Source of the DNA: Bryobacterales bacterium
GTDB lineage: Bacteria; Acidobacteriota; Terriglobia; Bryobacterales; Bryobacteraceae
Direction: 5' to 3'
Length of the DNA stretch: 32,234 bases
Assembly (NCBI GenBank): GCA_027324255.1
Contig: DAHVTI010000030.1
Coordinates: 1 to 32,234 of the forward strand
Of the stretch, positions 16,122 through 20,548 are shown in pieces. The notes under the pieces were generated by a model. The model saw only the letters and a list, made by a program, of their open reading frames with translations, did no database searches and was not told the DNA's origin. The translations under genes were made by a program, and so were the position numbers. Position 1 is the first letter of the stretch. Each line of letters starts with the position of its first letter.

Positions 16122-18746
16122 ATGACCGCCGAGCATCAGCGTCTGGCCGAAGACGAGCGCCGCGAGAAGCACTGGCGGCGGTGGGGCCCCTATCTATCTG
16201 AGCGGCAGTGGGGAACGGTGCGCGAGGACTATTCGGCCGACGGTGACGCGTGGAACTACCTGCCGTTCGAGCACGCGGCGCTGCGGGCCTACCGCTGGGG
16301 GGAAGACGGGCTGCTGGGGATCAGCGACAACCACCAGCGGCTGTGCTTCGCGCTGGCGCTGTGGAACGGGCGGGACCCGATTCTGAAAGAGCGGCTGTTC
16401 GGGCTGACGAACGGCGAGGGCAACCACGGCGAGGACGTCAAGGAGATCTACTACTACCAGGACTCGACGCCAACGCACTCCTATTTGAAAGGGCTGTACA
16501 AGTATCCGCAGGCGGAGTTCCCCTACGAGTGGCTGCGGCGGCGCAGCCGGGAGCTGGGCTCAGAGGGGCACGAGGTGGAGCTGTGGGAGTCCGGGTGTTT
16601 TGACGGGGACCGCTACTTCGACGTGGAGGTGGAGTACGCCAAGGCGGACGTGGACGACGTGCTGATCCGGGTGACGGCGACCAACCGCGGGCCGGAGGCG
16701 GCGCGGCTGCACCTGCTGCCGTCGCTGTGGTTCCGGAACCGGTGGTCGTGGGGCAAGCCGGACCGGCCGAGGCCGGAGATGCGGCAGACGGGGCAAGGGC
16801 GGGTATCGCTGACCGAGCACTCGCTGGGGGAGTTGTGGTTTGCGGCGGACGCGGGCGGGGAGCTGCTGTTTGCCGAGAATGAGAGCGACGCGAAGACCCT
16901 GTGGGACGAGCCGGAGAGGACGCCGTATCCGAAGGACGCGTTCCACCGGAGGGTGGTGAAGGGGGAGGCGGAGGCGGTGAACCCGGCGCGCACGGGGACG
17001 AAGATGTGCCTGTGGCACGAGGCGGTGGTGGGGGCGGGCGAGAGCGTGACGGTGCGCTGCCGGCTGGCGCCGGGGGCGGCGCCGGCGGAACCGTTCGCGG
17101 GTTTTGATGAGGCCTTCGGGCGGAGGCGGCGGGAAGCGGACGAGTTCTACGCGGCGGTGCAGGCGCCAGGGCTGTCGGAGGACGCGCGGAAGGTGCAGCG
17201 GCAGGCGCTGGCGGGGCTGCTGTGGTCGAAGCAGTTCTACCACTACTCGGTGGAAGAGTGGCTGGAGGGCGATCCGGCGTGGCCGAAGCCGCCGGAGGCG
17301 CGCAAGCAGGGGCGCAACAGGGCGTGGCCGCACTTCTTCACCAACGACGTCCTGTCGATGCCGGACAAGTGGGAGTACCCGTGGTTTGCGGCGTGGGACC
17401 TGGCGTTCCACATGATCCCGTTCGCGCTGATCGACGCCGCCTTCGCCAAGAAGCAACTGGAACTGCTGCTGCGGGAGTGGTACCTGCATCCTAATGGGCA
17501 GGTCCCGGCCTATGAGTGGAACCTGGAGGACGTGAACCCGCCGGTGCACGCGTGGGCGTGCTACCGGGTGTTCCAGATCGACGCGAAGCAGACGGGGCGG
17601 CCGGACCACGGGTTCCTGGAGCGGTGCTTCCACAAGCTGCTGATGAACTTCACGTGGTGGGTGAACCGCAAGGACTCGCTGGGCGATAACATCTTCGAGG
17701 GCGGGTTTCTGGGATTGGACAACATCGGGGTGTTCGACCGGTCGCGGCCGGTGGGGAGCGGGGTGCTTCTGGAGCAATCGGACGGGACGGCATGGATGGC
17801 GATGTACTGCCTGAACCTGCTGCGGATCTCGATTGAGCTGTCGCGGGTGAACCCGGCCTACGAGGATATTGCGAGCAAGTTCTTCGAGCACTTCCTGTAC
17901 ATCGCGAGCGCGTTCAACAAGGGGAACGGCGCGGGGCTGTGGGACGAGCAGGACGGGTTCTACTACGACCGGCTGCGGATGGCGGACGGGACGACGAAGT
18001 TTCTGCGGGTGCGTTCGTTGGTGGGGCTGCTGCCGCTGTGCGCGGTGGAGGCCTGGAGCGCGGAGGAGTTCGGGCGGCTGGAGGGGTTCGCGAAGCGGAC
18101 GAACTGGTTCCTGACGCATCGGCACGACCTGACGGTGAACCTGCTGTTTTCGCCGCCGGGGCCGGAGCGGGAGCGGGGCATCATTGCGCTGGTGGAGCCG
18201 TTGCGGATGCTGCGGGCGCTGGAGGTGATGCTGGACGAGGAGGAGTTCCTGTCGGCGCATGGGATCCGGTCGCTGTCGCGGTATCACGTCAAGCGGCCGT
18301 TCGTGCTGAAGCTGGACGGCGAGGAGCACCGCGTGGACTACACGCCGGCGGAGTCGAGGAGCCGGATGTTCGGCGGGAATTCGAACTGGCGGGGCCCGGT
18401 GTGGTTTCCGCTGAACTACCTGCTTATCGAAAGCCTGCAGCAGTTCCATTTTTTCTTCGGGGACAGGCTGACGGTGGAGTTCCCGACGGGGTCCGGGCAA
18501 CTGATGCACCTGGGGGAGGTGGCGGCGGAGCTGTCGCGGCGGCTGTCGCGGCTGTTCCTGCGGGATGAAAAGGGGCGGCGGCCGTGCTACGGGGACACGG
18601 AGCTGTTCCAGACCAACGAGCACTTCCGCGACCACGTGCTGTTCCACGAGTACTTCCAGGGGGACGACGGCGCGGGGCTGGGCGCGTCGCACCAGACGGG
18701 GTGGACGGCGCTGGTGGCGAAGCTGCTGCAGCAGAGCGGGGAGTGA
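16122..18746 (+). CDS. GH63/MGH1-like glycoside hydrolase (glucosidase)
   Basis: This 874-residue protein lacks a signal peptide or membrane helix and is probably cytoplasmic. Its N-terminal region (LSERQWGTVREDYSADGDAW, RAYRWGEDGLLGISDNHQRL, GLTNGEGNHGEDVKE) is a beta-sandwich-type start typical of the glucosidase family. The catalytic (alpha/alpha)6 region carries KWEYPWFAAWDLAFHMIPF, AYEWNLEDVNPPVHAWA (about 463-480) and GGNSNWRGPVWFPLNYLLIE (about 749-768). These match the MGH1-like/GH63 group, which includes alpha-glucosidases and mannosylglycerate hydrolases. The acids are probably the Asp in AWDLAF or LEDVN and a Glu in the C-terminal segment, but I cannot fix them without an alignment. 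No sugar transporter or trehalose gene is adjacent, so the substrate is open. A palindromic repeat cluster starts right after the stop, and three short repeats there resemble this gene's last 30 bases. Confidence 0.88.
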   Translation: MTAEHQRLAEDERREKHWRRWGPYLSERQWGTVREDYSADGDAWNYLPFEHAALRAYRWGEDGLLGISDNHQRLCFALALWNGRDPILKERLFGLTNGEGNHGEDVKEIYYYQDSTPTHSYLKGLYKYPQAEFPYEWLRRRSRELGSEGHEVELWESGCFDGDRYFDVEVEYAKADVDDVLIRVTATNRGPEAARLHLLPSLWFRNRWSWGKPDRPRPEMRQTGQGRVSLTEHSLGELWFAADAGGELLFAENESDAKTLWDEPERTPYPKDAFHRRVVKGEAEAVNPARTGTKMCLWHEAVVGAGESVTVRCRLAPGAAPAEPFAGFDEAFGRRRREADEFYAAVQAPGLSEDARKVQRQALAGLLWSKQFYHYSVEEWLEGDPAWPKPPEARKQGRNRAWPHFFTNDVLSMPDKWEYPWFAAWDLAFHMIPFALIDAAFAKKQLELLLREWYLHPNGQVPAYEWNLEDVNPPVHAWACYRVFQIDAKQTGRPDHGFLERCFHKLLMNFTWWVNRKDSLGDNIFEGGFLGLDNIGVFDRSRPVGSGVLLEQSDGTAWMAMYCLNLLRISIELSRVNPAYEDIASKFFEHFLYIASAFNKGNGAGLWDEQDGFYYDRLRMADGTTKFLRVRSLVGLLPLCAVEAWSAEEFGRLEGFAKRTNWFLTHRHDLTVNLLFSPPGPERERGIIALVEPLRMLRALEVMLDEEEFLSAHGIRSLSRYHVKRPFVLKLDGEEHRVDYTPAESRSRMFGGNSNWRGPVWFPLNYLLIESLQQFHFFFGDRLTVEFPTGSGQLMHLGEVAAELSRRLSRLFLRDEKGRRPCYGDTELFQTNEHFRDHVLFHEYFQGDDGAGLGASHQTGWTALVAKLLQQSGE

Positions 18747-19072
18747 GGGGTGGAGGCCGGACCTGGAGGTCCGGCCGCAGGCCTGGCCACCATCGCCCCT
18801 GACGGGGCTACGGCGCCTGGGGGAGGCCCCACGGGTGACGAGGTTGCTGCGACTGGGTGGGGAGGGGCCGGACCTGGAGGGCCTGCCCCACGCGTGACGA
18901 GGTTGCTGAAGTCGGGCGGGCAGGGGGCCAGACCTGGAGGTCCGGCTGCAGGCCTGGAGGCCTGCCCCACGGGGCGAGGTTGATGCAGCAGAGCGGGGGT
19001 GAGCGCGGCGGTGCCGAAGGGGCCGTAGACTAACGGGCGAGGCTAACGCCCTCAGGAAGGAATGGTGAGGCC
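18747..19072 (+). repeat. REP-like palindrome cluster with short imperfect repeats
   Basis: This 326-bp gap has no convincing gene. A perfect inverted repeat lies at 18755-18776, arms GGCCGGACCT and AGGTCCGGCC around GG. A second perfect one lies at 18948-18965, arms GCAGGCCT and AGGCCTGC around GG. A decayed copy with the core GACCTGGAGG lies near 18866-18885, and another near 18926-18946. Between them, a unit of about 30 bp like GTGACGAGGTTGCTG recurs at 18833-18861, 18891-18920 and 18971-18999. The same unit resembles the end of the preceding gene at 18713-18743 (GGCGAAGCTGCTGCAGCAGA). All palindromes share a CCTGGAGG core, as in REP/BIME elements. The first hairpin could also stop transcription, but no T-run follows. 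Confidence 0.7.
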
Positions 19073-20548
19073 GTGCGTCCATTAGCCCTGCTGGTTGTCC
19101 TGGCGGCCGCGCTGCCCGGCGCGCGCTATGCGAATCCGCTCGTGATCGAGAACTCCCGCAGCGTCGCGGACCCGTGCGTCATTCGCTTCGAAGGGCGCTA
19201 CTATCTCTTCCTGACGGGCGGGCGGGCCTGGGTCTCCGACGACCTGGTGATGTGGAAACACCACCCGTACACGCTGCCCGGCGGCAGACGGATTGCCGCG
19301 CCGCACGCCTTGGTGCACGGCGGGCAGGTGTGGCTGACCGGAAACGGCACGGGGCTCTACCGCGCGCCCGCGCCGGGCGGACCCTGGGAGTACGCCGGTG
19401 ATCTGCAGGACACGGCGGGCAAGAAGATGTCGCTGTTCGACACGATGATCTTCCCGGACGACGACGGGCGGCTGTACATCTACTGGTCGGGGATGCGCAC
19501 GGACGGGATCTACGGGGCGGAACTGGACCGCGAGAATCCCACGAGCATTGCGACTCCGGCGAAGAAGCTGTGGACCTTCGACCCCTCGCACCGGTGGGAG
19601 CGCTATGGCGACAACAACGAAGGAACCGCGCTGAGCTGGCTGGAAGCGCCGTGGATGACGAAGCGGAAGGGGACGTATTACCTGCAGTATTCGGCACCGG
19701 GAACCGAGTGGAAGACGTACGCCGTGGGGGTGTACACCAGCAAGCACCCGCTGGGCCCGTTCCGGTACGCGGAGCGGAATCCGGCGCTGGTGCACCGCAA
19801 CGGCCTGATCAACGGGGTGGGGCACCATACGGTGATCGAAGGGCCGGACGGCGGGTTGTGGGCGATTTACACGGTGCTGTACCGGAACCAAGGCGTATTT
19901 GACCGGCGCGTGGGACTCGACCCGGTGCGGTTCGACGCCAACGGCAACCTGTACGTCGACGGCCCGTCGGAGGAGCCGCGGGAGGGGCCACGGCAGGGCG
20001 GCGCCGCGGCGGCGGAGGGCTCGATGGCGGTCTCCTGGAACCGGTACAACTGGCAGGCGAGCAGTGCGAAGCCGGGGCGGGACCCGTCGTATGCCTTCGA
20101 CAACAACGTGCGCACATGGTGGGAGCCAGCGCAGGGGGACACACGCCCGTCGCTGACCCTCGACCTGGGATGCCGCAATCCGGAGGACCCGAACCAGGAG
20201 TTCGTGGTGGATTCGGTGCGTCTGCTGACCGACGCGGCGCCGCAGCCGGAGCAGATGCTGTTGAAGGTGGACGGCCACGCGGGATGGCTGCGGGGCGGGG
20301 CTCGCCGCGCGCCGGAGGCGCTGGAGCCACTGCGCTTCAAAGTGGAAGTGTCGCAGGACGATAGAACCTACGTGGCAGCCGGAGGGCGCACCGACGATAC
20401 GGCGAGGAACAACGACTTCGTGGAGTTCGCGCCGGTGCGCTGCCGCTACATCCGCCTGACGCTGGACCGCACGGCAGCGAAGATGCCGCTGGCAGTGCTC
20501 GAGTGGACGGTGTTCGGGAAGCCGGCCGGGGCCGGGAAGGCGCGGTAA
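19073..20548 (+). CDS. Secreted GH43-like five-bladed propeller with F5/8-type C-terminal domain
   Basis: From GTG 19073 this is 491 residues with a signal peptide (MRPLALLVVLAAALPGARYA). AGGAAGG at 19054-19060 is 12 nt from the GTG. An ATG at 19062 opens only a seven-codon frame ending at 19085. Residues about 21-310 resemble family 43 glycoside hydrolases: SVADPCVIRFEGRYYLF (probable catalytic-base Asp), DTMIFPDDDGRLYIYWSG, LEAPWMTKRKGTYYLQYSA (probable catalytic Glu) and GVGHHTVIEGPDGGLWAIY. Residues about 325-487 look like a discoidin/F5/8 type C carbohydrate-binding domain (PSYAFDNNVRTWWEP, SLTLDLG, FKVEVSQDDRTY, CRYIRLTLD). It probably trims arabinose- or xylose-containing polysaccharide outside the cell. 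Its first 60 bases have as many C as G, unlike the preceding gene. Confidence 0.82.
   Translation: MRPLALLVVLAAALPGARYANPLVIENSRSVADPCVIRFEGRYYLFLTGGRAWVSDDLVMWKHHPYTLPGGRRIAAPHALVHGGQVWLTGNGTGLYRAPAPGGPWEYAGDLQDTAGKKMSLFDTMIFPDDDGRLYIYWSGMRTDGIYGAELDRENPTSIATPAKKLWTFDPSHRWERYGDNNEGTALSWLEAPWMTKRKGTYYLQYSAPGTEWKTYAVGVYTSKHPLGPFRYAERNPALVHRNGLINGVGHHTVIEGPDGGLWAIYTVLYRNQGVFDRRVGLDPVRFDANGNLYVDGPSEEPREGPRQGGAAAAEGSMAVSWNRYNWQASSAKPGRDPSYAFDNNVRTWWEPAQGDTRPSLTLDLGCRNPEDPNQEFVVDSVRLLTDAAPQPEQMLLKVDGHAGWLRGGARRAPEALEPLRFKVEVSQDDRTYVAAGGRTDDTARNNDFVEFAPVRCRYIRLTLDRTAAKMPLAVLEWTVFGKPAGAGKAR

Follow-up and report, generated by a model that had tools for sequence, protein, structure and literature searches.

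The palindromes between 18747 and 19072 of the window (the whole 32,234-nt stretch of Bryobacterales DNA analyzed here) very probably belong to a non-autonomous REP of the GTAG/GTGG superfamily, built as a composite of one GTGG foot and two tandem hairpins and moved by one particular group of RAYTs. While the element falls within a known class of REPs, its construction from two hairpins behind a single foot is a new variation, and titles and abstracts of the open-access literature on RAYT/REP in Acidobacteria, REPIN and tandem hairpins did not describe such a design. According to the available text of PMC8266576, the E. coli RAYT cuts single-stranded REP and requires the foot, and both the recognition and the spreading of REPs by RAYTs are still unsettled. 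A family whose elements each pair a single foot with two hairpins, their loops co-varying, offers a natural test of which parts a RAYT reads.

Results

Three copies of a composite element in the window

The gap at 18747-19072 is bounded, as had been proposed from its sequence, by two carbohydrate-enzyme genes, one for an MGH1-like/GH63 protein upstream (16122-18746) and a GH43 gene downstream (19073-20548). Both perfect inverted repeats of the original prediction were recovered, one with 10-bp arms (18755-18764/18767-18776) and one with 8-bp arms (18948-18955/18958-18965), each around GG, as were its two decayed palindrome copies at about 18866-18887 (repeat family D4) and 18927-18946 (repeat family D2). 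The gap contains three copies of an element of ~43 nt, one full and two damaged, all on the minus strand, and the two palindromes reported earlier are its two hairpins. The earlier reading of the palindrome as a REP-like repeat holds, but the unit that is repeated is a single-footed double hairpin and not one palindrome.

The composite is best seen in copy 3 (18927-18970), which on the minus strand consists, in order, of a GTGG foot (18967-18970; CCAC on the plus strand), hairpin II (18948-18965; 8-bp stem, loop CC) and hairpin I (18927-18946), with a single base between each part and the next. This copy is defined by inverted repeat I18, repeat family D2, a profile match and a covariance-model match at 18921-18976 (E = 3.8e-12); its foot points toward the GH43 gene rather than toward a stop codon. 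Copy 1 (18756-18832) retains an intact hairpin I (18755-18776), its hairpin II is split by unrelated bases at ~18787-18814, and a foot-end remnant was recognized by eye at 18829-18832. It was identified from inverted repeat I11, a profile match at 18756-18789 and a weak model match at 18750-18796 (E = 8.1e-4). In copy 2 (18866-18891), a fused single hairpin, the outer arm of hairpin I is joined to the outer arm of hairpin II and the foot; this copy was located through a copy of repeat family D4 at 18873-18887, and the fold of 18860-18895 was no better than that of shuffled sequences (63/200 shuffles). Similarly fused copies occur elsewhere in the genome from which the window comes (hereafter the source genome), for example on contigs C338, C381 and C389, and these may be single-hairpin relics of deletion between the direct CCTGGAGG cores.

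The spacers of the array are themselves repeated. The 3' tail of the upstream gene (18710-18755, plus strand; repeat family D1) is the apparent source of the plus-strand spacer segments. The spacer between copies 1 and 2 (18833-18865) resembles this tail and scored above all 200 shuffles against both the tail and the next spacer. The spacer between copies 2 and 3 (18892-18926) exceeded all 200 shuffles against the first spacer, although its score against the gene tail was equaled by 4/200. The segment behind copy 3 (18971-19008) is a close repeat of the gene tail, again above all 200 shuffles, with an 88% match between the last codons of the gene (18716-18747) and 18973-19003. When spacers and flanks were compared for five arrays and one further locus of the source genome, 7/19 same-locus comparisons exceeded all 200 shuffles, as against 0/134 between loci. 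A local repeat of spacer or flank was seen on C59 (the window contig), C35, C399, C383 and C421; by the same shuffle comparison, the array on C489, one of the five, had none. As judged from these likenesses, a putative duplication of the element together with its local flank explains the similarity of the spacers in the window array, and slippage or unequal exchange would have duplicated the copies along with their flanks. REP clusters reiterated along with flanking DNA are reported in the available part of PMC3733652.

Hairpin structure

The main variant of the family (GTGG, 1 nt, an 8-bp stem and a 2-nt loop) fits the rules of the GTAG/GTGG superfamily, which in the accessible text of PMC6006769 are a GTAG/GTGG 0-2 nt from the hairpin, a basal stem of 7-20 nt and a loop of 2-5 nt. 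In the 22 equal-length variants that were tested, out of 40 distinct ones in the source genome, G1, T2 and G3 are invariant. Paired cells made up 90.1% in this set versus 86.6% in shuffles, and covariation was 0.098 versus 0.044, a value reached by 0/500 shuffles. Three pairs changed on both sides, a count also reached by 49/500 shuffles, and most of the covariation signal came from one exchange in hairpin II, C-G to G-C, in 9/22 variants. The palindrome is thus kept by complementary changes, as in the superfamily. RNA folding of one copy with its tail gave -37.3 kcal/mol (z -3.35) and that of the full copy in the window -32.5 kcal/mol (z -1.66; 14/200 shuffles equally good). In transcripts, a copy would give two strong hairpins behind the gene.

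Copies across the source genome and its relatives

The source assembly comprises 6.17 Mb in 605 contigs and is 97.5% complete. A covariance model built from 29 of its copies found at least 79 matches in it at E ≤ 0.001, this being a lower bound because 150 of 13,631 candidates were scored. The genome search for the palindrome that had been suggested as a check, run with the 22-nt pattern CAGGCCTGGAGGCCTGCCCCAC and up to 3 mismatches, gave 84 places and 0 for the reversed pattern, and a profile search of the fetched loci yielded 87 copies, whole or partial. With at least 79 copies, the palindrome is neither unique in the genome nor confined to this gap. The proposal of a lineage-specific REP-like family is supported by this dispersed, mostly intergenic distribution and by elements of the same design that flank RAYT genes in relatives.

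Matches to the model were found in 16 of 61 genomes, the source genome included, with 78 in the source genome, 48 in genome G025, 29 in G028 and 0-9 in eight congeners; copy number within one genus ranges from 0 to 78 between genomes. Among the matches listed for relatives, most share this plan but differ in their stems and loops. Elements of G025 often stand in close inverted or tandem groups (L316, L320, L321, L324, L329), and copies in the source genome are mostly single.

RAYT genes flanked by the element in relatives

The RAYT group in question (alignment A2) was defined by a gap in scores: 31 rows lie between 142 and 307 bits, and the next two are at 98.7 bits, which is a second piece of one group RAYT, and 69.2 bits. 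Ten of ten A2 proteins match NCBIfam REP_Tyr_transpos at E ≤ 0.001, one of them scoring 75.4 bits against a family cut-off of 80. The flanks were scanned for GT[AG]G followed by two adjacent hairpins, a search that seeks the double-hairpin shape itself. After removal of one row that is cut by a contig end (G037:C928), 30 group RAYTs were scanned, and a double hairpin was present within 400 bp of 18 of them, compared to 2 of 44 other Y1 genes, these being the subset of all matches with fetched loci (p = 1.4e-7). Near group genes (23.0 kb) the same scan found 34 elements; 51.1 kb lying at a greater distance held 1, and 268 kb of shuffled sequence produced 1. At L280, L312, L289, L235 and L225, one copy stands on each side of the RAYT, inverted and with the feet outward. 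A group RAYT occurs in 12/16 genomes with element matches versus 4/45 without (p = 1.4e-6). Relatives therefore carry RAYT genes flanked by elements of the same design, which is the arrangement of a REPtron. Speaking against the link to this group are the 12/30 group RAYTs without a double hairpin within 400 bp and the 2/44 other genes that have one.

Among the best 80 relatives from named genomes, classified by taxon labels that the author assigned from record titles, the double hairpin was found near 10/18 Bryobacterales genes and 2/7 genes of other Acidobacteria, and near 0/1 Pyrinomonadaceae gene. Outside the Acidobacteria it was found near 5/54, and 29/54 had single-hairpin REP-like elements only. 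This survey partly repeats the scan of 30 RAYTs, since L343 is the gene of L312 and L357 that of L257.

Insertion sites

The 87 copies of the source genome comprise 27 in convergent, 26 in co-directional and 3 in divergent gaps, 14 in predicted ORFs and 17 at locus edges, so that 56/87 lie between two genes and the family is both multicopy and mostly intergenic, as members of the superfamily are. The same loci contain, in total, 25 convergent, 47 co-directional and 14 divergent gaps that are 60 or more bases long, with genes called by a simple codon-usage script written for this analysis and not by a published gene finder. A stop codon stands no more than 4 nt from the foot end in 24/46 cases, compared to 1/37 for the tail end (p = 4.1e-7). 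Random placement within the same gaps gave a mean of 4.0 and a maximum of 10 such cases of 39, versus 21 observed, and a simpler ORF test gave 22/56 for the foot, 3/48 for the tail and 6/230 for random positions. As G025 and G028 have a stop codon this close to the foot in just 2/20 and 2/12 cases, respectively, the pattern is claimed for the source genome alone, and stop-codon siting as a rule for the whole family was rejected.

The TAG stop codon of pyrG ends with the G of the foot. GTAG REPs whose foot forms part of stop codons are also reported in PMC3733652, as far as its available text extends. The element is absent behind pyrG in 8/8 congener genes (170 nt inspected) and behind glmS in 6/6 readable ones (1/7 was unreadable). 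By eye, the gene following glmS looks the same in congeners, and that behind pyrG resembles its counterpart in 2/8 (L428, L430); it differs in the other congeners, which makes those matching sites weaker. Since the congeners have no element at either place, the pyrG and glmS copies are most simply read as insertions in the lineage of the source genome. Together with the element-free congener sites, these stop-codon copies provide before/after pairs for studying insertion and effects on expression.

A position just behind stop codons could also mean that the element is retained primarily for a function of its RNA or DNA at the ends of genes, as a terminator, an mRNA stabilizer or a translation brake at the stop codon, with mobility secondary; we regard this as unlikely, though it is the alternative with most to recommend it. 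E. coli REPs near stop codons act in translation as such a brake. The foot placement in 24/46 cases, the scarcity of copies in divergent gaps (3/87) and the paired changes in the stems would all fit such a role. However, paired stem changes are expected too if a transposase needs the hairpins, and the congeners without an element behind pyrG and glmS, the range of 0 to 78 copies within one genus and the weak stop-codon pattern in G025 and G028 speak against it. Of the source-genome tails inspected by eye, few carry the T run of an intrinsic terminator (that on C456 does), and an intrinsic terminator was rejected on this ground. A sub-threshold Rfam snoRNA match in 18600-19200 (15.6 bits versus a gathering score of 42) was rejected as chance, and three other loci gave no Rfam match at the gathering threshold.

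Orientation of the two hairpins

Comparing the two loops within each of 44 elements from RAYT-flank loci gave 13 elements whose loops are identical in direct orientation, versus a mean of 1.6 and a maximum of 7 in 5000 shuffles, and 0/44 whose loops are identical as reverse complements. Mean loop similarity is 0.72 versus 0.44 when shuffled; as the rows compared are related, this result is not to be read as a probability. Directly behind hairpin I, neither CCAC nor CTAC was found by eye in any of the 35 elements listed from 18 RAYT-flank loci. Given the direct match of the loops and the lack of a far-end foot in these 35 elements, the unit resembles two hairpins in direct tandem with a single foot.

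These data make it improbable that the unit is an ordinary inverted pair of REPs (a BIME, REPIN or head-to-head dimer) that had a foot at both outer ends and lost one of them to decay. Such pairs do share with the window family two close hairpins dispersed as one unit, and the available text of PMC3733652 describes head-to-head dimers 1-2 bp apart in O. terrae, comparable to the two abutting hairpins here. In about 20/76 copies of the source genome (by eye), CCGC behind hairpin I gives a GCGG-like far end that could be a second foot. Against this, the hairpins of the window family are direct by their loops, with 13/44 identical and 0 as reverse complement, there is no regular second foot, and the inverted REPs with a foot on each outer end that characterize BIMEs, REPINs and head-to-head dimers were not seen.

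Behind hairpin I, copies of the source genome outside the window have recurrent tails, either CGCGCTCGTCTTTCGACAG-like or GCAAAACTAACTT-like, which suggests a mobile unit of about 65 nt with two possible subfamilies. At this position, elements beside RAYT genes in relatives often show CTCGACCAGC or GAGAATTCC (by eye).

Transposases of the source genome

Looking up Y1 (RAYT) genes in the source genome, as had been suggested, gave four PF01797 (Y1) matches and a weak fifth on C470 (33 bits), but none of the matching group: in the 97.5%-complete assembly the best score was 51.7 bits, versus 142-307 for the group. The four PF01797 genes have no double-hairpin element within 400 bp, and a profile search found no element in the 8-12 kb around them (L188-L191); the source genome thus shows no RAYT flanked by the element as in a REPtron. 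The original prediction had placed any mobility in trans. In keeping with this, 0/4 PF01797 matches lie on the window contig, C59, but the trans-acting transposase itself was not found, since the Y1 transposases found in the genome are of other groups and lack the element in the 400 bp around them. In an assembly of 605 contigs, a RAYT gene could have been missed. Moreover, the distance to a contig end is at most 250 b for 21/87 copies, versus 4.3 expected, and with copies enriched at contig ends the cognate RAYT gene may sit in an assembly gap. The double-hairpin family itself seems to break the assembly at contig ends.

That the element is moved by the other-group Y1 transposases of the source genome (L047-L050 and the protein on C470), or by another transposase, is very improbable. 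While these are the sole Y1 transposases found in the genome, the element is missing within 400 bp of, and in the 8-12 kb around, the four PF01797 genes, and at least one side of each of L047-L049 carries another end sequence, GACTGTCACC or GACAGTCAGC. That the palindromes are a chance or local low-complexity artefact can safely be dismissed, for although the gap is GC-rich and locally duplicated, at least 79 copies across the genome and a count of 0 for the reversed-pattern control refute it.

L047 (C579), L048 (C167) and L049 (C307) form a trio of related RAYT-like genes that are bordered on one or both sides by GACAGTCAGC/GACTGTCACC-like sequences. They are probably TIRYT units, as their ends look (by eye) like those of the Acidobacteria TIRYT units in the available part of PMC3733652, and these ends are unrelated in sequence to the window element. 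L050 (C413) encodes a Y1-type protein of another group, whose HVH and Y....Q motifs resemble by eye those of class 3 TnpA-Y1 as given in the accessible text of PMC6006769; no double-hairpin element lies within 400 bp of it. L311 (C470) encodes a Y1-type protein of another group, a weak relative.

Discussion

The element described here shares much with the GTAG-superfamily REPs, as these are presented in the available portions of PMC3733652, PMC2817692 and PMC6006769: a GT[AG]G foot separated by 1 nt from a GC-rich hairpin with a 2-nt loop, about 80 copies that are mostly intergenic with few in divergent gaps, a foot at or in stop codons, arrays with repeated flanking DNA, and the same design beside RAYT genes in relatives. 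Unlike those REPs, it places a tandem pair of hairpins, their loops matched, behind a single foot, and the genome that carries it yielded no RAYT of the matching group. Class 3 TnpA-Y1 of Solibacter, with its CnGA-footed repeats, represents another system of high-copy structured repeats in the same bacterial order, and differs from the window family in both foot and transposase, to judge from the text of PMC6006769 at hand.

In the reading of the element as a REP moved by a group RAYT, this HUH-Y1 transposase would have folded and cut the single-stranded element via its GTGG foot and pasted it elsewhere, with sites just behind stop codons either favored or tolerated during insertion. The cognate RAYT would then have been lost from the source genome or be hidden in an assembly gap. 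Weighing against this reading, besides the RAYTs that do not fit the link, are the failure to find a matching RAYT in the source genome, the weak stop-codon pattern in G025 and G028, the GCGG-like far end of about 20/76 copies, the fold of the full copy in the window, which 14/200 shuffles equaled, and the direction of that copy's foot. More tentatively, a lineage of Bryobacterales RAYTs may have shifted its substrate from one hairpin to a matched-loop tandem pair with a single foot, two subunits perhaps each reading one hairpin, and the elements of the source genome may have outlived, or become separated from, their enzyme. This possibility is open to doubt; if true, matched loops would be a signature of double reading by a RAYT.

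Some copies of the element also appear to have received insertions. A sequence of ~105-115 nt with inverted ends, CATAAGCGCTAACTTAAG.../...CTTAAGTTAGCGCCTATG, lies inside hairpin II at L035 (C582) and L024 (C592), and in C582 it is flanked by the 12-bp direct repeats GGCCTGGAGGCC. From these features, the insert looks like a MITE, with ends that may be akin to those of the IS231/IS4 family. Partial joins of the same insert occur at L004 (C156) and L180 (C513).
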